DNA from: a virus
DNA length: 21,275 nt
Virus record (IMG/VR): IMGVR_UViG_3300009165_000047
Span: 1-21,275 of that record
Reading direction: 5' to 3' (one strand)
A program made the translations under genes and the position numbers. This document shows, piece after piece, positions 9,039-21,275 of this stretch. Within the stretch, counting starts at the first letter, position 1, and every line of letters begins with the position of its first letter. The notes under the pieces were generated by a model. It did no database searches and had not been told where the DNA came from. It saw nothing but the letters and a program-made list of their open reading frames with translations.

Positions 9039-11258
9039 TTATATTATTTTTGAACTATTGCCGTTGTTATCGTATTTTTTAAAGTTTAATGCTACTGCTA
9101 TTTTTTCAATTGCATAAACTGGAGTATACATGTGTTTGTTACATGCCATTATTGCCAATCCTGAACTAATAGAAGCATCATGCTTTGTTCTATCATTGAT
9201 ATTAAATCTAGCCCAATCATTTAATGTTTTCTGGAAATACATAGTCCCAAAGTTATCGCCTACAATTCCAACATAAGTTTCAATATAGGTTTCAATTGCT
9301 GCAGCATGAGCTTGTATAATATCTTGTCCTGAGTTTGGTATACCGCCTATTTCTTTTTCAGCTGGTGATAACTTATTCCACGTTTTATCTGGTCGATTCA
9401 TAGAGTAACCTCTATAACCTCTCCTTTTAAAATGATATAATAGTCTAGCTTTGTTATTCTCTGCTAATATAGGCATACCATAAAAAATACAAGCCATTAG
9501 TATTTCTTCGAAGAAGATCTCTGCTGTTTGTGGTCTAGCTATATATTCTAAAAAGAAATGATTAGCTGGTATGTCTTCCATTGAGAACTTTGTTAATCCG
9601 TGTAATGCTCCATTGGATCCACGGTTATCAACTGTTCCTGATATATCATAACTATCACATCCAAAGGCACCACAGTGCTCATTACCTGGGTATTTCATCC
9701 CATCCTTTATTATTACACGGTTTTGCATGTATTTAGGGGGAACCCAACTAATTAAGAACCTGCCGTCTTTATTTGGATAGAATATTACTTTTGAATCAAC
9801 TATTCCGTTCTCCCATTGAAAACTTCCTTTAGTTAATATATTTGTATTTCTTAGATCTTCATTGTAATCAATCTGTTCATATATTTTTGTAAGATTGAAT
9901 AAAGATTGTTTTGTTTCATCTCTAAAGGCATGTTGCTCTGTTCTTGGAAACTGTCTGTAGTATTCATTTAAAGCATCTGAATCTGATTTTAAACCATCAA
10001 CTTCATTTTGCCAGTGCTCAATAACACCATATTCAATCCAACTCCCATCTACCCCTTTTACAGGTTTTTCTGGCGTATCGAATACAGGTAAGCCATAAGT
10101 ATCAATGAATCCTTCGTAGGACCATTCCATAGGTATGAACAAACTATATAATCCTGAACTAGTCTGTCCGTTGCGGGTTCTTTTTTTAACATCAGAATTA
10201 TAATAAAGTTTCTTAAAGTTATCTCCTCCTTTATCTAAAGCGTTTGAGGTTGATCCCATCATACACTTACCAATAATCCTACTACCTAATCGTAAACAAG
10301 TTTTTGTAACTCGCCAGTTATTCAATATATTATCTGGACGTTCCCATTTACCACTCTCATCGTGTACTAAAAGTTTTAACTTTTCACCATCATAAGAGTT
10401 ATCTCCCGTGTTTTTCCAGTCAATTGTAGTGTCTAATCCATCAAGTTCATCTAGCTTCTCATTATTATCTAATTTTCTTCTAGTAAGTTTTGATGCGGGT
10501 ATTCTATAAGCTAATTCTGTTTTAGGCCTATCCATACCGTCTTGTATTGGCTTAAAGAAGAAAGGATAGTTTATTGATATTGGTACAACCTTATCCGTAA
10601 ACATCTTTTTAGCATCCGCTCCAGACTTTGATAATATACCAAATCGTGAGTCACTTGATATTGTAGCTTGATTAACTAATTCAGCGGATGACATAAATGA
10701 AAAACCAGAACGTCTATTCTTTAAATAGGTCATTCCATAACATCTACTATCCGCTTTACAGGCTTCCCAGAATATAAAGAACAATCTATTTGACTCTCTA
10801 AAATCTGGCGCTCCAACGTCTATCTTACTCCATTGCAAGTACATATAATGCGTACCTGTTATATAAGTGGCTTTGCCGTTATTATAAAACGACATACCTT
10901 CTTCTCTTCTTTTGAACTCTTGGTCAATGTAATCATACCAATGCTCTTTAAATGCATCTGGATATTTATTCCAATCGAATACATTCTTTATCTTTTCTAT
11001 TTCTTTGTTAACAGGTATCTGCTCCCAATATTGCTCTTCTTTTTTATCGGATCTTTTATATGTATCTTCCGCTAAAGGTAAAGCTATTTTTAAATTCTGT
11101 ATTTCATATATCTCGCCAATCTTACCGCTACGGCTTATTACAACCATATCGTATTCTTTGTTATAGCCATACTCCCATTTATTATAACGGTTCTTTTGCT
11201 TAACAACATTTGGCTTTACATGATCTGTAACTATTTTGTATAAAGCTTGTTCGTACAT
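9039..11258 (-). CDS. Terminase large subunit (TerL), 739 aa
   Basis: TerL is the ATP-driven packaging motor and DNA-cutting nuclease. A degenerate Walker A of the 'KNRRSGFS' type lies near residues 180-187, a Walker B with catalytic acids (KLLVHDES, D300 E301) near 296-302, and a coupling motif candidate (MMGSTSN) near 333-339. RNase H-like nuclease acids are plausible at D535 (FGCDSYD), E600 (MPILAENN) and D646 (NSGQDIIQAH). The length is large but typical of crAss-like TerL. The ATG overlaps the stop of the 91-aa gene (TAATG), indicating translational coupling. It is followed directly by the portal gene. Confidence 0.92.
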   Translation of the reverse strand: MYEQALYKIVTDHVKPNVVKQKNRYNKWEYGYNKEYDMVVISRSGKIGEIYEIQNLKIALPLAEDTYKRSDKKEEQYWEQIPVNKEIEKIKNVFDWNKYPDAFKEHWYDYIDQEFKRREEGMSFYNNGKATYITGTHYMYLQWSKIDVGAPDFRESNRLFFIFWEACKADSRCYGMTYLKNRRSGFSFMSSAELVNQATISSDSRFGILSKSGADAKKMFTDKVVPISINYPFFFKPIQDGMDRPKTELAYRIPASKLTRRKLDNNEKLDELDGLDTTIDWKNTGDNSYDGEKLKLLVHDESGKWERPDNILNNWRVTKTCLRLGSRIIGKCMMGSTSNALDKGGDNFKKLYYNSDVKKRTRNGQTSSGLYSLFIPMEWSYEGFIDTYGLPVFDTPEKPVKGVDGSWIEYGVIEHWQNEVDGLKSDSDALNEYYRQFPRTEQHAFRDETKQSLFNLTKIYEQIDYNEDLRNTNILTKGSFQWENGIVDSKVIFYPNKDGRFLISWVPPKYMQNRVIIKDGMKYPGNEHCGAFGCDSYDISGTVDNRGSNGALHGLTKFSMEDIPANHFFLEYIARPQTAEIFFEEILMACIFYGMPILAENNKARLLYHFKRRGYRGYSMNRPDKTWNKLSPAEKEIGGIPNSGQDIIQAHAAAIETYIETYVGIVGDNFGTMYFQKTLNDWARFNINDRTKHDASISSGLAIMACNKHMYTPVYAIEKIAVALNFKKYDNNGNSSKII

Positions 11259-11533
11259 TACTTAGATCTCCCTTCTGCAAACCCTCTAAATGGTTTTGCT
11301 TCAACAGCCTTTTCGGATTCATTGATCATCCGTTCTTCCTCTTGAATCCTAGTTAGTATTTCAAATGCATCGAAGATAGCTAGCTTTTTAGTAGCCGCGG
11401 CATTCTTTAATTTTTCAGGTTCAGGATCATCTTCATTGCCTGCTAATATTGGTGATTTTGCAACTTTAATTAACTCTCCTACTGCTTGCCTACCGGCTTC
11501 AATAATAGCCTGCTTTGTTTCTTTTGTATTCAT
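11258..11533 (-). CDS. Small terminase-adjacent protein, candidate TerS-type partner, 91 aa
   Basis: This 91-residue, highly charged and mostly helical protein (KQAIIEAGRQAVGELIKVAK; then LKNAAATKKLAIFDAFEIL) ends in a basic tail (FRGFAEGRSK). Its stop codon shares one base with the TerL start, the usual position for a small terminase subunit, and a conserved protein of this type precedes TerL in related phages as I remember them. It is shorter than most TerS proteins and I cannot see a clear DNA-binding helix-turn-helix, so it might instead be another packaging accessory factor. A 53-base AT-rich gap separates it from the double GroES-like gene upstream. Confidence 0.55.
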   Translation of the reverse strand: MNTKETKQAIIEAGRQAVGELIKVAKSPILAGNEDDPEPEKLKNAAATKKLAIFDAFEILTRIQEEERMINESEKAVEAKPFRGFAEGRSK

Positions 11534-11586: not shown

Positions 11587-12183
11587 TTATGTCCAGCGAC
11601 TATGATATTCCTCTTCGTCTCCTTTATATTCATATTTAATTACAATATCATTAGATTTCATACAATATAATCTCTGGTTATCTATGATAAACTCAAACTC
11701 TCCGTATGGTTTATATCCTACTAAGTCCCCAGGATTGATTTCAAGCTTGTTTAAGGCTTCGTTTCCGTATTTTAATATTCCAATATGCTTTCGTTCTTTA
11801 TCAAGCTTAAATTGGTTATTATTTTTTAACGGTTTTACAAAACAACGATCACCAAATGACAACCATTCAGTATCGGGTTTGTATAAATATATTTGATCAG
11901 GATCACAAAAATATAAATCTTCTTTGAAATAAGCTCTACTATTTTTTTGTTTACCTTTAATGTCATAAAAACGTCTAAACACGTTGTGATGTATTACTAT
12001 CGTATCACCAACTTTTATATCTGTTTTATATGCTAATGGTATTGCTACTACTTCAGCTATATTATTTACAGATTTAAAACTCTCTATACGAGTGTTTAAG
12101 ATTAACTCTTTACCTTCTACATCAATTTTGTTATCGTATCTAGATCCTACCGGTTTAACTATAAAATTAAATACGCTTGTCAT
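11587..12183 (-). CDS. Tandem GroES-like (double co-chaperonin-fold) protein, ~198 aa
   Basis: I read two GroES-type beta barrels in a row. The second is clearest: FGDRCFVKPL, then IGILKYGN, then LEINPGDLVGYKPYGEFEF, IDNQRLYCMKSNDIVI, matching the GroES order 'DRVLVKP... GxVxxxG ... VKVGDxVxYxKYxG... ..Y.I....DIL'. The first is looser: FNFIVKPVGSR, LILNT, NIAEVVAIP, DIKVGDTIVIHH, then LYFCDPDQIYLYK. The second barrel lacks a normal-length mobile loop; the first retains a long segment there. Chloroplast Cpn20 is a known tandem co-chaperonin, so the architecture is not without precedent. I prefer the ATG at 12183 (MTSVFNF), one base after the upstream stop, over the in-frame ATG at 12213 that overlaps the previous gene. 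Assignment is by eye and has not been tested by a profile search. Confidence 0.6.
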   Translation of the reverse strand: MTSVFNFIVKPVGSRYDNKIDVEGKELILNTRIESFKSVNNIAEVVAIPLAYKTDIKVGDTIVIHHNVFRRFYDIKGKQKNSRAYFKEDLYFCDPDQIYLYKPDTEWLSFGDRCFVKPLKNNNQFKLDKERKHIGILKYGNEALNKLEINPGDLVGYKPYGEFEFIIDNQRLYCMKSNDIVIKYEYKGDEEEYHSRWT

Positions 12184-12184
12184 A

Positions 12185-12412
12185 CTAATACTCCAGGTCG
12201 TATTCAATAGCAATGCTCATGTTGGAATTAAATTTCTTCCATGGCATAACCTCGTTCTCTTTCTTTATGTAAATATTATAAGAATTATCTACAATGTCTA
12301 AAAGTATATGAGAGATCTTATGTCCACCATATACTTCTTGTCCCACAGAATAATGCATGGCATCGTCTTTGTAGTTTGCTCCTATACTTATTTTTCTAAC
12401 AACAGAATCCAT
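12185..12412 (-). CDS. Conserved small phage protein, 75 aa
   Basis: Function unknown. The sequence runs MDSVVRKISIGANYKDDAMH, then YSVGQEVYGGHKISHILLD, then alternating charged and aromatic residues ending VMPWKKFNSNMSIAIEYDLEY. The strand-like spacing suggests a small all-beta domain. I recall similar small proteins (with VRKISIG... and VGQEV) upstream of the terminase in environmental Bacteroidota phages, so it belongs to the conserved pre-packaging block. Its ATG overlaps the stop of the 82-aa gene by one base and its TAG stop lies one base before the tandem GroES-like start, so all three are probably translated as a unit. No membrane or catalytic motif is visible. Confidence 0.65.
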   Translation of the reverse strand: MDSVVRKISIGANYKDDAMHYSVGQEVYGGHKISHILLDIVDNSYNIYIKKENEVMPWKKFNSNMSIAIEYDLEY

Positions 12413-13126: not shown

Positions 13127-14851
13127 TTATAGTGTTGTTAATTGTGCAAGTTCAGCGTTTGTTAAACGTGTTTTATAAAGTTGTGATGAGTTATTTTTTC
13201 CTAAAAATGGGCTTCCACCTGAACCTGCATCGTATGAAAATACACTACAAGTTGGTACAGTTCCAGTTGAGCCAACGGCAATTTGATTTCCATTTACATA
13301 AAAAGCAAAATCACTTCCTTTATATGCAATTGCAGCCTTATATCGTGTTCCTACTAACACAGGTGTATTATAAAAAAATTGACTTACATTACCTACTCGA
13401 ACTTGCGCAAAAAGCAATCCAGAACCGCTAAAAACAACAACTCTATCTGAACCCGTACCATTATTAATACCTATTGCATTAGCCGTTGTTACATCGATAA
13501 ATACAATATCAACAAACAAAGTCCCCTCTGTTTGACCAATTAAACTACTTATTCCTGTTTTAGAAATAACATCAGCGTTACGTGTTACTGTTGATGCTAC
13601 TGTTGGTATGTATGATGTTTGGTAAGAACCTACTTCTAATTGTGCACCCCATATATCCACATTTCCAATACAATCAGTATCCCCAGTGCCATCTTGTTTA
13701 ATTCCTCCTAAAATTAGGTATGATGAAACACCTATTGTTATTAAATTTCCACTATAAGTAAATTTTTGCCAATTATCATTAAGTGTGTATTTAGTTGAGA
13801 AACCAGTATTCCAAATTGAAGTATTGTTTGTGGTAAATCTAATTGAATTTGCACCACCTGAAACTGATTTTTTAGCATAAAAAGAAAAAGTATAAATTGT
13901 ACTTGATGTAATCGAATTGACGCCTTGCCTAACAGCACTATTTAAAAGTAAAATATTTAATGTGTTTGCATTTGTCAATCCACTTGGCGAAATAATTGAA
14001 GAAGAAGTTATAGAAGCAGAAGTAACTTTCTCCCAACTTGCATTGTCAAATTGTTCACTTCTTAAAGCTAAATTCGTTCTCTGCGGCTCAACTAATATAC
14101 TAGGTGTACCATTTGAGTAATCAACTCTTGGTACATCTAATCTATCAGTTGTTGGAAAATATTCTGTTGCTGATGAGCCTGATTCTAATTGAGCACCCCA
14201 CCATACAATAGAAGAAACACCATCTCCATTATATGTTTCACTTCCTGAAGTAGTTCCGTTTGTATTTGCTAAAAAAAATGTATTATTTCCTGTTAAATCA
14301 CAAACTCCTGTAGCAGTAATTTTATACCAACCATCTCCAACATTTGTTATAGTTCCTGTTCCGTTTACTTGACTGCCTACTGTTCCATTTGTTAAATCAA
14401 AATAAACTCTAATCCAAACTCCTGTTCCTGAACCCCCAAATTGAACATTTCTACTGCCAACTCCTCTTTTTACATAAGCACTAATCGTATAAGTAGTTCC
14501 ACTTGTTAATGATATTGAGAATTTTGCCATCCTATGTTGAGTAGCAGTTGCAGAATTTTCTATAACGCTATCAGCAGTTAAAGTTCCATCAGGAGCCGTT
14601 GTTGTATTGGTAGTTACAGAAACTCCTGCTTTTACCCAACTTGCGTCATTAAATTGCTCTGAATAAGTAAATAAATTCCTTGGTACTACTTCAATCAATC
14701 CTTGCTCGTTTACTCTCGTTGTAGTTGTAGCACGAACTACATCCATTTCTCTTGGTACGTATAAATTTTGATTTAAAGCGTACCCTAAGAAACTATTCTC
14801 CTTTACGGCAAAATTATCATTGCCTATTACTAAACTTGCTTGTTCTATCAT
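13127..14851 (-). CDS. Receptor-binding fibre with carbohydrate-binding-like and LamG-like domains, 574 aa
   Basis: A short N-terminal segment (KENSFLGYALNQNLYVPREM) leads into MDVVRATTTTRVNE, then two repeats of a jelly-roll-type module, each introduced by 'SEQF(N/D)(D/N)ASW' (near residues 64-72 and 265-273) and closed by 'WGAQLE(S/V)GS' followed by Tyr-Phe-Pro or Tyr-Ile-Pro (near 218-233 and 410-422). The C-terminal ~140 residues (SLIGQTEGTLFVDIVF; YKAAIAYKGSDFAFYVNGNQ; SQLYKTRLTNAELAQL) have the strand pattern of a concanavalin A-like/LamG lectin domain. This layout is common in Bacteroidota phage fibre proteins that bind surface glycans. Its ATG overlaps the TGA of the paralogous 631-aa gene (ATGA). 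Role as adsorption protein is inferred; it could decorate the head rather than the tail. Confidence 0.75.
   Translation of the reverse strand: MIEQASLVIGNDNFAVKENSFLGYALNQNLYVPREMDVVRATTTTRVNEQGLIEVVPRNLFTYSEQFNDASWVKAGVSVTTNTTTAPDGTLTADSVIENSATATQHRMAKFSISLTSGTTYTISAYVKRGVGSRNVQFGGSGTGVWIRVYFDLTNGTVGSQVNGTGTITNVGDGWYKITATGVCDLTGNNTFFLANTNGTTSGSETYNGDGVSSIVWWGAQLESGSSATEYFPTTDRLDVPRVDYSNGTPSILVEPQRTNLALRSEQFDNASWEKVTSASITSSSIISPSGLTNANTLNILLLNSAVRQGVNSITSSTIYTFSFYAKKSVSGGANSIRFTTNNTSIWNTGFSTKYTLNDNWQKFTYSGNLITIGVSSYLILGGIKQDGTGDTDCIGNVDIWGAQLEVGSYQTSYIPTVASTVTRNADVISKTGISSLIGQTEGTLFVDIVFIDVTTANAIGINNGTGSDRVVVFSGSGLLFAQVRVGNVSQFFYNTPVLVGTRYKAAIAYKGSDFAFYVNGNQIAVGSTGTVPTCSVFSYDAGSGGSPFLGKNNSSQLYKTRLTNAELAQLTTL
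13521..13619. repeat. 99-bp near-identical repeat, copy A (in 574-aa fibre gene)
   Basis: This stretch matches 15311-15409 with four differences in 99 positions by my alignment, in direct orientation. It encodes the conserved linker before the C-terminal lectin-like domain, from Thr-Val-Ala-Ser-Thr-Val-Thr-Arg to GQTEGT. Flanking sequence diverges quickly, so identity is restricted to this hinge. Confidence 0.85.
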
Positions 14852-16743
14852 TGTATGTTATAATTTAAAGCGATAGCCATTTTATCGTATGTGTAGAATG
14901 AATCACCTGTTAGTAATTCAAGTTGAGCGTTTGATAAACGTTCTTTCCAAAGTATTGCAGAATTAATTCTATCATTTAAGATACCTACGGTTGCTGGGCT
15001 CTCATTTTTTCCTAAATAAACATCAGAACAAGCGGGCACAGAATTAGAAGTGTTTGCGCCTATTTGTACTCCGTTAACATAAAAAACAAAATCGTTGGCC
15101 TTATATGCTAAGGCAAGTTTAAATGTGTTTCCAGAAATTGCAGAAGACGGAATAGTTACCTGCAAAACATTTGAAAGCCTACTAATCGCACGAATCGTAT
15201 TTACCGAAGTACCTTTTTGTAAAACCACAGTGTTGTTGTTAGTTCCGTCTGATATTCCAAAAATCCTCTCTCCAGAAGTCCAGTTTTGTATATCCACCTC
15301 TGCAAACATCGTCCCCTCTGTTTGACCAATTAAACTACTTATCCCTGTTTTAGAAATAACATCAGCGTTACGTGTTACAGTTGATGCTACTGTTGGAATA
15401 TATGATGTTGCGCTTGAGTCAGCTTCGAGTTGTGCACCCCAAAGATAAACGGATGTAGATAAAGAGTTTGATTGTGCTCTTCCTGAATTAGATGTATCAA
15501 TTAAAGCACAACTAATTCCTGATGTAGAGGTGCTTGTTGCTGTAAATGTTATAGAACATCTATACCATTCATTATTTGCGTTATTAATTAAAGCAATAAC
15601 TCCTGCCCCAACAGTTCCTAATACTCCTGTATTTAAATCAAAATTTGCAAAAGCATTTGTTCCAAAGGATGCATTTGGCAATATTAATTGTGCAAAATTA
15701 TTTGTATTCTTTTTTAAAAAAAAAGAAAGTGTATATGTTATCCCAACCGTGAAATTCAAAGTTTTTTGAATTGCGTGAAAACCATTTACACCATTTCCTG
15801 CAAGAGTATCAGCAACAATTAAACCTGATGGAGAATTTGTTGTGTTTGCAGTTATTAATATGTTTGTCTTATCGTAACTTGCATCATCAAATTGTTCTGA
15901 AAAAGTTAACAAATTAGTTCTCTGAGGCTCTACCAATAAACTCGGACAACTTCCGTTTGTGTAATCAATACGAGGAATGTTTAAACGCGTTGTTGTAGGG
16001 AAATATTCTGTTATTGTTGGAGACAATTCAAGTTGAGCTGCCGCAATACAAACCTTAGTTGCTGCTTCACTACTTAACGAAAGTAATCTAAAATAATTAC
16101 CAGTAAGTGTACTAGAAAAAACATCTATTCTTTGCCATTCGTCAGTTAATTCTAAACTAAGATATGGAGAAGAATTTGATATTTTAAATCCAAAAGTTTT
16201 ACCAATGTCTGATGCGTCTATTGCTTTTAGATAAAAAGAATAACTCGCATTTATTATTGTTCCCGTATCTTTTGTAATATATTTTAATGAATCTCCAATA
16301 TTTGTTAAATTGTACGTTTGAATATTTGGAAAAGGCGGTTCAATAGTTGAAAGAGCTATTGTAGCTCCTCCTGCTTTAACCCAACTAGCGTCACTAAAGT
16401 CACCAGAATAAGTCAATAAATTTCTAGGTACTATTTCAATAAGTCCTAATTCGTTTACTCTAGTCGCTGTTGTAGCACGAACAACATCCATATCGCCTAA
16501 CGTAGTGTTTGGAACTACTGAATAAAGTTTAGTTTCGTTATAAGCGTTAGGCGTAACAACAAGAGACGCATTGTCTAATAATCCAATAGCGTTTAATTCT
16601 TCTAATGTTGTATCTAAACAAGGACCGGCTTCAAATATACTACCTGGATATGTAGCCACTCTAGCTTTAAAATTAGCAATAATGTTATTTGCTACGCTAT
16701 ATATGGCTTTCGCCCATCCTATTCCGATCCCTATATTTATCAT
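14848..16743 (-). CDS. Receptor-binding fibre paralogue with LamG-like C-terminus, 631 aa
   Basis: It shares the architecture of the 574-aa gene. A different N-terminus (MINIGIGIGWAKAIYSVANN, residues 1-80, probably the virion attachment region) leads to DMDVVRATTATRVNELGLIE, then two jelly-roll-like carbohydrate-binding modules at roughly 107-255 and 277-450 (marks: TYSGDFSDASW, FSEQFDDASY, YLWGAQLEADSSATSYIPT), and a LamG/ConA-like domain near 465-605 (KLALAYKANDFVFYVNGVQI; LWKERLSNAQLELLTG). Residues 339-345 are encoded by a T9-A6-G tract that carries slippery heptamers. It starts one base after the 88-aa gene and overlaps the next fibre gene by four bases. The two fibres probably arose by duplication and may form a receptor pair or alternates. 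Confidence 0.75.
   Translation of the reverse strand: MINIGIGIGWAKAIYSVANNIIANFKARVATYPGSIFEAGPCLDTTLEELNAIGLLDNASLVVTPNAYNETKLYSVVPNTTLGDMDVVRATTATRVNELGLIEIVPRNLLTYSGDFSDASWVKAGGATIALSTIEPPFPNIQTYNLTNIGDSLKYITKDTGTIINASYSFYLKAIDASDIGKTFGFKISNSSPYLSLELTDEWQRIDVFSSTLTGNYFRLLSLSSEAATKVCIAAAQLELSPTITEYFPTTTRLNIPRIDYTNGSCPSLLVEPQRTNLLTFSEQFDDASYDKTNILITANTTNSPSGLIVADTLAGNGVNGFHAIQKTLNFTVGITYTLSFFLKKNTNNFAQLILPNASFGTNAFANFDLNTGVLGTVGAGVIALINNANNEWYRCSITFTATSTSTSGISCALIDTSNSGRAQSNSLSTSVYLWGAQLEADSSATSYIPTVASTVTRNADVISKTGISSLIGQTEGTMFAEVDIQNWTSGERIFGISDGTNNNTVVLQKGTSVNTIRAISRLSNVLQVTIPSSAISGNTFKLALAYKANDFVFYVNGVQIGANTSNSVPACSDVYLGKNESPATVGILNDRINSAILWKERLSNAQLELLTGDSFYTYDKMAIALNYNIQ
15311..15409. 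repeat. 99-bp near-identical repeat, copy B (in 631-aa fibre gene)
   Basis: Direct-orientation partner of 13521-13619, differing at four positions by my alignment. It lies at the same place in the protein, just before the lectin-like domain, so recombination between copies would exchange or delete whole C-terminal domains in frame. Confidence 0.85.
15709..15724 (-). other. Homopolymer tract with slippery heptamers inside fibre gene
   Basis: On the coding strand nine T are followed by six A and a G, read in frame as TTT TTT TTA AAA AAG. This contains both T_TTT_TTA and A_AAA_AAG in the zero-frame phase that favours -1 slippage; the second is the classical dnaX-type heptamer. A -1 shift at A_AAA_AAG would add Glu-Tyr-Lys and meet a TAA stop, giving a ~348-aa short form. 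I see no obvious strong downstream pseudoknot or upstream Shine-Dalgarno stimulator. Replication slippage in the T9 run could also switch the gene off. Confidence 0.35.
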
Positions 16744-19320: not shown

Positions 19321-19763
19321 CTTGTTTTATCTTTATTTACATTATTTATTGCTGATCGTAATACTATATCTGTATATGTATTATTTCTCATTATTTTATT
19401 ACTTCGTGTAGTTGTTGGTATATCTTCAGTACCAAGCATTATACGATACATTCTGCTTATTAGTTGTTTACACTTAAAGGAAACTTTGTATATATTATAT
19501 TTTTGGGTTGTATGGTTTCTATTTCGCCACACTACTATCCACCCTTCTTTTAATAAACTGTTCCAGCGTTTGTTGTCCCAACTATATGCGTATGTACCAA
19601 TCTTATAATCTTGTTTGGTAAAAAATTCCATACAATCAAAGTATATCAGTAATTCTAAATCAGCGTCTGTAAGATCATAATTTCTGCAAGCCCATCTACG
19701 GATTAATCTATAATGTTTTAGTAAGCCTAGATCTTTAATATCTTTTGCTTCTAATTTTCTCAT
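19317..19763 (-). CDS. Conserved phage protein, possible winged-helix type, 148 aa
   Basis: I recognise the sequence style (LKHYRLIRRWACRNYDLTDA, DLELLIYFDCMEFFTKQDYK, SYSWDNKRWNSLLKEGWIVV) from a protein found repeatedly in environmental Bacteroidota crAss-like phages, without a known function. The spacing of helices followed by a 'GWIVVWRNRN...KYNIYKVS' beta hairpin resembles a winged helix of the MarR kind, which would make it a DNA-binding regulator or packaging-recognition factor. The C-terminus is basic (TYTDIVLRSAINNVNKDKTR). Its start overlaps the GroES stop by four bases, so it is co-expressed with the chaperonins. The DNA-binding idea is inference from pattern only. Confidence 0.65.
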   Translation of the reverse strand: MRKLEAKDIKDLGLLKHYRLIRRWACRNYDLTDADLELLIYFDCMEFFTKQDYKIGTYAYSWDNKRWNSLLKEGWIVVWRNRNHTTQKYNIYKVSFKCKQLISRMYRIMLGTEDIPTTTRSNKIMRNNTYTDIVLRSAINNVNKDKTR

Positions 19764-20020
19764 AGAACAATAACTATATCCTGTAGCTTTATAACCTGAT
19801 AAGTATTCCCTTCAAACTCTATTCCGTGTCCAGCTGCTTTGTCATAATAAATAACGTCTGCTTGCTTTACACTTTTTATATCATCACTTACTGAAACTAT
19901 AATAGCTTCTTTGTAACGAATATTCTCTTTATCTTTTTCTTTTAAAAGTAAACCGTTTTCTGTTCTTGCTAATCCGACCTTCTTTGGTAAGATTATAATA
20001 TTATTACCTATTGCCTTCAT
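19760..20020 (-). CDS. groES: GroES-like co-chaperonin (HSP10), 86 aa
   Basis: This is a single GroES barrel that caps the GroEL cage. It shows NNIIILPKK at residues 6-14 for the first strand, a mobile-loop region ~15-35 with a hydrophobic tripeptide at 24-26 (GLLL, equivalent to the GGIVL of bacterial GroES that contacts GroEL), and the closing VIYYDKAAGHGIEFEG plus YQVIKLQDIVIVL, matching 'Y.KYAG.E....Y.I....DI.A'. At 86 aa it is about ten residues shorter than E. coli GroES (97), with the roof loop trimmed. The ATG lies within the 3' end of the GroEL frame (17-base overlap), so the two are translated together. Phage co-chaperonins such as T4 gp31 help fold the capsid protein; that role here is inferred. 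Confidence 0.85.
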   Translation of the reverse strand: MKAIGNNIIILPKKVGLARTENGLLLKEKDKENIRYKEAIIVSVSDDIKSVKQADVIYYDKAAGHGIEFEGNTYQVIKLQDIVIVL

Positions 20021-21275
20021 TGACTCTCAAGTTATTGATTACACAATCAGTTGATAATATTGTAACAGCTACAGAAGCTGCATTCTTTAAAGCTGATTTG
20101 GTAACTGATAGTGGATCAATAATTCCAGCATCTATCATATTAACAACATCTCCTGTTATTACATTTAATCCATACCCAGTTTTAGACACGCTTTCTAATG
20201 GTGTATATTCAATTCCGGCATTCCTTAATATTGTATGGAAAGGTGCTTTTATAGCATCTAACAATACTTCTTGCCCAACACCGAAAGAATCTATACTATG
20301 AGAAGCGTTCAATAAAGCAACTCCGCCTCCAGGTACAATACCTTCTTTAATCGCGGCTTTAGTTGCGCAAATTGCGTCTTCAACTCTATCTGCTTTTTCT
20401 TTTAATTCTATGTCAGATCCAGCGCCTACCTTAACTACCGCTACTTTTGCTGAAAGTCTAGCTAGTCTTCTTTCTAACCTAATTACTTCTGCTGGCGGTA
20501 AACTGCCTTCTAATTGATTATTTAATTCATCAATTAATTCTTGTACTTCTGTAGTAACTTCTCCAACGTGCAATATAGTTTCTGAATCATCAGTTATACT
20601 TTTTAAACAACTACCTAAGTAACTTGGATCAATTAAATCCATATCATCGCCTAAGTCTTCATTTATAATTGTAGCTCCGGTTAGTAATGCTAAATCAGAT
20701 AATGTATCTTTTTTGTTTACGCCATAGGTTGGAGCATTGACAACATTAACTTTTATATTGCCTTTTACCTTATTCATTGCTAGAGCAGCCAATACTGTTG
20801 TATCTACGTCTGCTATAATAAGCAAAGATTTGTTTGCTTTTATTACGTATTCTAATACCGATTGTATTTGTCTTATTGATTCAACTGGTGACTCTATAAG
20901 TAATACTGCTGGATTATCTAATTCAGCAACTCGTTTGTTTGGGTTAGTTATAAAATGTGAATTAACTAATCCTTTGTCGTATTGAACACCATCTATAATT
21001 TCTATTGAGGTTTCAGCGGCATCAGATGATTCCATCATTACAATACCTGTTTCTCCAACCGCTCTAAAAGCGTCGCCAATAATTTTACCTAATACAGGGT
21101 CATTGTTTGTGGATATTGTTGCAATGTGGTTTATCATATCTCCGGTGACTGGAATAGCTATTGATTCTAAATACTCAATAACTTTTTTAGTCATGGTTTC
21201 AATACCATCTTTTAATTCTCTTGTATTTACTTTAGATTGTACTTTGTAAGCTTCTTCTAAAATTGCATGGGCTAA
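20004..21275 (-). CDS. groEL: GroEL-like chaperonin (HSP60), C-terminal ~80%, cut by window edge
   Basis: The frame is open through the right edge (first visible residues LAHAILEEAYKVQSKVNTRE), so about 423 residues are present, corresponding to roughly residue 95 to the end of E. coli GroEL; the N-terminal equatorial part with the ATP phosphate loop lies outside. Visible landmarks are the apical segment (YDKGLVNSHFITNPNKRVAE; SLLIIADVD), the catalytic-Asp motif DRVEDAICATKAAI (equivalent of E. coli D398), IVPGGGVALL and DAGIIDPLSVTKSALKNAAS. The C-terminus ends INNLRVNEGNR and lacks the GGM-repeat tail. Divergence across the apical domain and retention of nucleotide-site residues suggest a working but specialised chaperonin. 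It stands before groES, the reverse of the usual bacterial order. Confidence 0.93.
   Translation of the reverse strand, partial: LAHAILEEAYKVQSKVNTRELKDGIETMTKKVIEYLESIAIPVTGDMINHIATISTNNDPVLGKIIGDAFRAVGETGIVMMESSDAAETSIEIIDGVQYDKGLVNSHFITNPNKRVAELDNPAVLLIESPVESIRQIQSVLEYVIKANKSLLIIADVDTTVLAALAMNKVKGNIKVNVVNAPTYGVNKKDTLSDLALLTGATIINEDLGDDMDLIDPSYLGSCLKSITDDSETILHVGEVTTEVQELIDELNNQLEGSLPPAEVIRLERRLARLSAKVAVVKVGAGSDIELKEKADRVEDAICATKAAIKEGIVPGGGVALLNASHSIDSFGVGQEVLLDAIKAPFHTILRNAGIEYTPLESVSKTGYGLNVITGDVVNMIDAGIIDPLSVTKSALKNAASVAVTILSTDCVINNLRVNEGNR

Follow-up and report, generated by a model that had tools for sequence, protein, structure and literature searches.

A tandem GroES-fold protein encoded shortly before the terminase gene in Bacteroidota phages: a candidate subunit of a chaperonin lid

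The window, meaning the whole stretch of DNA analysed here, is a 21,275-base IMG/VR virus record. On its minus strand lies an open reading frame (ORF) with an ATG start, 198 codons and a stop, exactly as an earlier note, made from the sequence alone, had given it; the encoded protein is predicted to consist of two GroES-like units (Table 1). Downstream on the same strand are a 91-aa ORF, the terminase large subunit gene (terL) and a gene for a protein with a weak P22-portal match, and upstream are ORFs of 75 and 82 aa. The earlier note had described the tandem gene as standing beside the terminase; terL is indeed close by, but the two are not directly adjacent because the 91-aa ORF intervenes. 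Genes for a single GroES and for GroEL are found about 8 kb further upstream. The single GroES, which the earlier note had also pointed out, is matched by the Pfam Cpn10 profile, and together with the tandem fold it makes up the three GroES barrels which that note had counted in this phage.

Table 1. Position of the tandem gene, its two domains and associated genes in the window
Feature	Coordinates	Strand	Basis or remark
Terminase large subunit (terL), 739 aa	9039..11258	-	PHROG 6681, E=5.8e-167
91-aa ORF between tandem GroES and terL	11258..11533	-	Position alone; no supported family match (Pfam, PHROGs)
Tandem GroES-fold protein, 198 aa	11587..12183	-	PHROG 13932, AlphaFold2, Foldseek
Domain 2, residues 107-198, Cpn10-like unit	11590..11865	-	Pfam Cpn10, E=6.6e-4; hhalign to single GroES, 93-95%
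Domain 1, residues 1-106, GroES-like unit, 31-residue mobile-loop-like segment (ELILN)	11866..12183	-	AlphaFold2 strands; no match from Pfam alone
75-aa ORF directly upstream of tandem GroES	12185..12412	-	Relative upstream in 181/187 loci
Single GroES, 86 aa, canonical-looking mobile loop (ENGLLL)	19760..20020	-	Pfam Cpn10, E=2.7e-9, above cut-off
Phage GroEL, cut by window end	20004..21275	-	Pfam Cpn60_TCP1, E=5.7e-37; PHROG 5725, E=1e-89

Elsewhere on the minus strand of the window, two adjacent large proteins (13127-14851 and 14848-16743) share repeated stretches (such as RNADVISKTGISSLIGQTEGT), and one of them has a weak carbohydrate-binding match that falls below the cut-off. They are likely duplicated fibre or appendage proteins.

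The profile of PHROG 13932 ("co-chaperonin GroES") spans the whole tandem protein (residues 1-182 versus 1-197/200, E=2.4e-25), and the two halves differ in how readily they are recognised. The C-terminal half matches the Pfam Cpn10 profile (PF00166) weakly in the window protein (20.1 bits against a cut-off of 21.1) and above the cut-off in three relatives (35.2, 27.1 and 25.1 bits). In profile-profile comparison with single GroES it reaches 93-95%, and it is the one half recognisably Cpn10 by sequence. The N-terminal half gave no Pfam Cpn10 match in the window protein or in any relative tested, phmmer against PDB sequences yielded no direct sequence proof that it is Cpn10, and in a family-profile search of the PDB the Cpn10 chains were matched by domain 2 only. 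Aligned to single GroES with hhalign, the N-terminal half reached probabilities of 33% and 14% against 1% for a reversed control, values that are suggestive only, and at this low probability its strands fall in the expected register. Comparison of domain 1 with domain 2 gave only 3-4%.

Structure prediction with AlphaFold2 (37 sequences; pLDDT 79.3, pTM 0.73) returns two successive six-stranded units, with strands at residues 7-11, 40-47, 61-65, 85-87, 90-93 and 98-102 in domain 1 and at 113-118, 134-139, 153-157, 163-167, 170-176 and 180-187 in domain 2. The order of the six main strands is identical in both halves, and confidence is low at residues 32-36 and 124-127, within the two loop regions. 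A Foldseek search of the PDB with the whole model places chains R and Q of 7ekq, which are Cpn20 and chaperonin 23 (Cpn23), at the top, aligned over 204 and 212 columns with TM scores of 0.54 and 0.50. The next matches are single GroES, Cpn10 and T4 gp31 (1g31_A) chains with TM of about 0.27, roughly half the value for the tandem chains. A relative with only 21-22% identity has the same top match. In the viral library BFVD the model retrieves phage relatives, including the chaperonin cpn10 of phi18:3. The 304-residue nameless viral protein A0A516L046 from the same library also aligns to the model and may be an extended form that carries an additional domain. The identification of the N-terminal half as a probable GroES unit thus rests on the fold, that is, on the full-length structural alignment and the repeated order of predicted strands. 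The earlier note had read two successive GroES-like units, the second more strongly, in a layout resembling plastid Cpn20, and it was borne out in each respect: prediction of the whole protein gives two such units rather than a single non-barrel domain, profile search matches the C-terminal half but not the N-terminal half, and the structural alignment to Cpn20 and Cpn23 runs over the full length.

Across the whole tandem gene, dN/dS is 0.076-0.103 against four relatives with 78-88% identity, and it is low in each half when the same four are compared; the gene is under strong purifying selection, with both halves constrained. Relatives of the protein occur in at least 498 IMG/VR stretches. More distant ones were recovered by scans with the Elemovirus, Callevirus and Bacelvirus proteins and, among the matches listed, by a family-alignment scan; a search of IMG/VR for Panino-type relatives confirmed none. 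Clustering at 60% identity sorts the 203 full-length tandem proteins, each about 180-215 residues long, into 20 groups. A chance resemblance to GroES is ruled out by the hundreds of relatives, the purifying selection and the fold. A scan of GTDB for cellular homologues found 11 loci, every one in contigs of metagenome-assembled genomes (MAGs), which are most likely phage contigs binned with them; the MAGs labelled Aliivibrio, Woesearchaeota and Desulfobacteraceae (L126, L128, L132) probably hold tandem genes in this way. The tandem GroES is carried by hundreds of related Bacteroidota phages. In GenBank and RefSeq tandem genes bear the labels co-chaperonin GroES or cpn10, and the core genes of the Pervagoviridae include cpn10 (PMC8776804); annotation as GroES is thus already known. 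In the literature searched we found no paper on the tandem layout in phages, on its tie to terL or on its companion, though an earlier description may exist.

The position of the tandem gene is fixed across the family. In all 184 loci with sufficient sequence, no more than 1.5 kb separates the tandem gene from a terL located downstream on its strand; upstream, 181 of 187 loci have a relative of the 75-aa ORF. The 75-aa protein (pattern RKIS-G-Y-AMHY-VGQ) has no family match in Pfam or PHROGs. Placement before terL suggests that the tandem protein may be made together with the products of the virion genes. The tandem gene of Elemovirus, Callevirus and Panino borders directly on terL, and their TerL is longer (877-880 residues), with additional sequence at the N-terminus; the window has instead, like the Manatee Spring phage and phi46:3, an intervening ORF of about 90-100 aa. 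Since the TerL of Elemovirus and Callevirus is longer at its N-terminus instead, our guess is that the 91-aa ORF and its counterparts may encode a small terminase subunit. In the crAss-like phage phi14:2, a 129-aa protein encoded two genes upstream of terL (L120:7767-8156) appears GroES-like by eye; it gave no Pfam Cpn10 or PHROG match.

Companion genes were counted as Pfam Cpn10 and Cpn60 matches over entire records, namely the 30 distinct ones that reach at least 45 kb and carry the tandem gene; this sample takes in close relatives and is not one of independent events. A separate single GroES is present in 30/30 of these records and GroEL in 25/30. GroEL is lacking in four Bacelvirus genomes that are nearly identical and in one Pervagoviridae-like contig, so that these five records represent about two lineages. 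Tenacibaculum phage Gundel_1, which has a related TerL, gave no tandem gene, PHROG 13932 match, Cpn10 or GroEL, and in Flavobacterium phage immuto both GroEL and a single GroES are present with no tandem match. In this sample, then, every tandem gene is accompanied by a single GroES, but a single GroES can be present with no tandem gene.

The segment between strands 1 and 2, which in GroES holds the mobile loop, is longer in domain 1 (median 31 residues) than in domain 2 (median 16), with E. coli GroES at 21. The loop core of domain 1 is hydrophobic in all 203 proteins (at least two of four adjacent residues; three of four in 172), with ELILN in the window, GLILN in Elemovirus and GLELH in Bacelvirus as examples. 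The domain 2 loop of the window protein has 16 residues and lacks, by sequence, the hydrophobic tripeptide of GroES. Bacelvirus (SLIYIPEDNKEK; SLIYIPEDNKE) and Pervagoviridae-like contigs (GSIIVPNSGE) have a long hydrophobic loop at this place, which is shortened elsewhere; from this it is reasonable to infer an ancestor with two gripping loops and later loss of the domain 2 loop in several lines. Domain 1 also contains a highly conserved HHN-F segment that is not present in E. coli GroES.

Among known systems, the plastid and apicoplast proteins Cpn20 and Cpn23 are like the phage protein in that a chain holds two GroES units, each of about 100 residues and joined head to tail, and in coexisting with a single Cpn10, a pairing seen in the phages at the level of encoded genes. 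They differ in that both Cpn20 domains are Cpn10 by sequence (two stretches), whereas phage domain 1 is not recognisable; that Cpn20 retains mobile loop, roof and beta structure in both domains (PMC3542282), whereas the domain 2 loop of the phage protein is shortened in the window clade; and that the phage gene is tied to terL. With no tripeptide in its domain 2 loop, the window protein is Cpn20-like in layout and is not filed as Cpn20. The named members of PHROG 13932 (Cellulophaga Callevirus and Bacelvirus, Flavobacterium Elemovirus and Maribacter phage Panino) share the family, a similar length and the place before terL, although Bacelvirus and the Pervagoviridae-like contig differ in having the long hydrophobic domain 2 loop and no GroEL. 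T4 gp31 is likewise a phage-encoded co-chaperonin of GroES fold, but it has a single domain, while the window protein is tandem and has a single GroES as companion. Compared with GroES/Cpn10 itself, both units share the predicted fold and domain 2 matches the profile, weakly in the window protein, whereas domain 1 does not and there are two domains per chain.

The reading we favour, at roughly even odds (a probability of about 0.5), is that the phage tandem co-chaperonin and the single GroES form a hetero-oligomeric 3+1 lid that closes GroEL for the folding of virion proteins. Of its seven barrels, six would come from three tandem chains and the last from one single phage GroES. The stoichiometry is proposed because the solved plastid complex has three tandem chains and one single chain: the co-chaperonin part of 7ekq consists of two Cpn20, one Cpn23 and one Cpn11 chain, making seven GroES domains. 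Functional assemblies of seven cpn10 domains also arise when plastid Cpn10 and Cpn20 hetero-oligomerise (PMC3542282), and Cpn11/20/23 is a heterotetramer (PMC8889267). The phage lid would close the phage's own GroEL where one is encoded and that of the host where it is not, and its clients would be virion proteins made from the neighbouring block of packaging and virion genes. Contact with GroEL in the window clade would be made by the hydrophobic mobile loops of domain 1 and of the single GroES, and domain 2 would have a mainly structural place in the ring. An asymmetric lid of this kind, in which only some barrels take hold of GroEL (here three domain 1 loops and the single GroES), is a tentative proposal that is somewhat more apt to be wrong than right. 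During phi38:1 infection the phage GroEL is produced, and it was detected in a preparation of free virions as well (PMC13288928).

The earlier note had left two roles side by side, a chaperonin cap and a GroES fold reused as a virion or packaging factor. The evidence leans to the lid, not decisively, since a single GroES always co-occurs, the mobile-loop-like segment of domain 1 is hydrophobic, and the virion proteins of the relative phi40:1 that carry MS/MS support include its portal and others but not the tandem protein; a lid would have no need to be part of the particle. The same annotations weaken the candidacy of the tandem protein as a virion component. Against the lid stand a domain 1 that lies beyond Cpn10 sequence recognition, a domain 2 loop that is short (16 versus 21 residues), a gene tied to terL and not to groEL, and the 5/30 long records without a phage GroEL. 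Its main rival remains reuse of the fold in DNA packaging or head assembly, for instance by forming a ring or adaptor that cooperates with TerL or the portal and does not bind GroEL, a reading which we regard as unlikely while giving it real weight. The constancy of terL downstream and of the 75-aa gene upstream (184/184 and 181/187 loci), the retention of the protein in phages without their own GroEL and the conserved HHN-F segment all speak for such a role; the constant company of a single GroES, the hydrophobic core kept in the domain 1 loop and the phi40:1 virion data speak against it, though TerL is likewise not listed by MS/MS in those virions.

The remaining alternatives concern the partners of the tandem protein. 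It may act without the single GroES, as a homo-oligomer that shifts the client range of host or phage GroEL in the manner of T4 gp31, which is among its structural matches. At-cpn20 and Pf-cpn20 function by themselves, mostly as tetramers (PMC3542282), and the phage protein is found even in phages that lack a GroEL; however, this model has no need of the single GroES found in 30/30 long records, and a tetramer in the window clade would offer only four full-length loops, so that we hold it to be rather improbable. The top structural match comes from the Chlamydomonas Cpn11/20/23 complex in 7ekq, which caps ClpP (PMC8889267), and so suggests that the phage protein may cap a protease of this kind. 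We give this very little credence: the match is readily explained by shared fold because 7ekq is the source of the top-ranking tandem co-chaperonin chains, and no ClpP was identified within the window.

Double co-chaperonins are known mainly from plastids, namely chloroplasts and the malaria apicoplast, where the fit of an even-numbered chain to a seven-fold cage is an open question. If the 3+1 lid is correct, the phages would provide a second instance, outside plastids, of this solution to seven-fold symmetry. The phage version is widespread, its hosts (Cellulophaga, Flavobacterium, Maribacter) can be cultured and its single-GroES companion is fixed; it would offer an independent and genetically tractable test of such a lid, and of why these phages would require one dedicated to folding next to the packaging genes.
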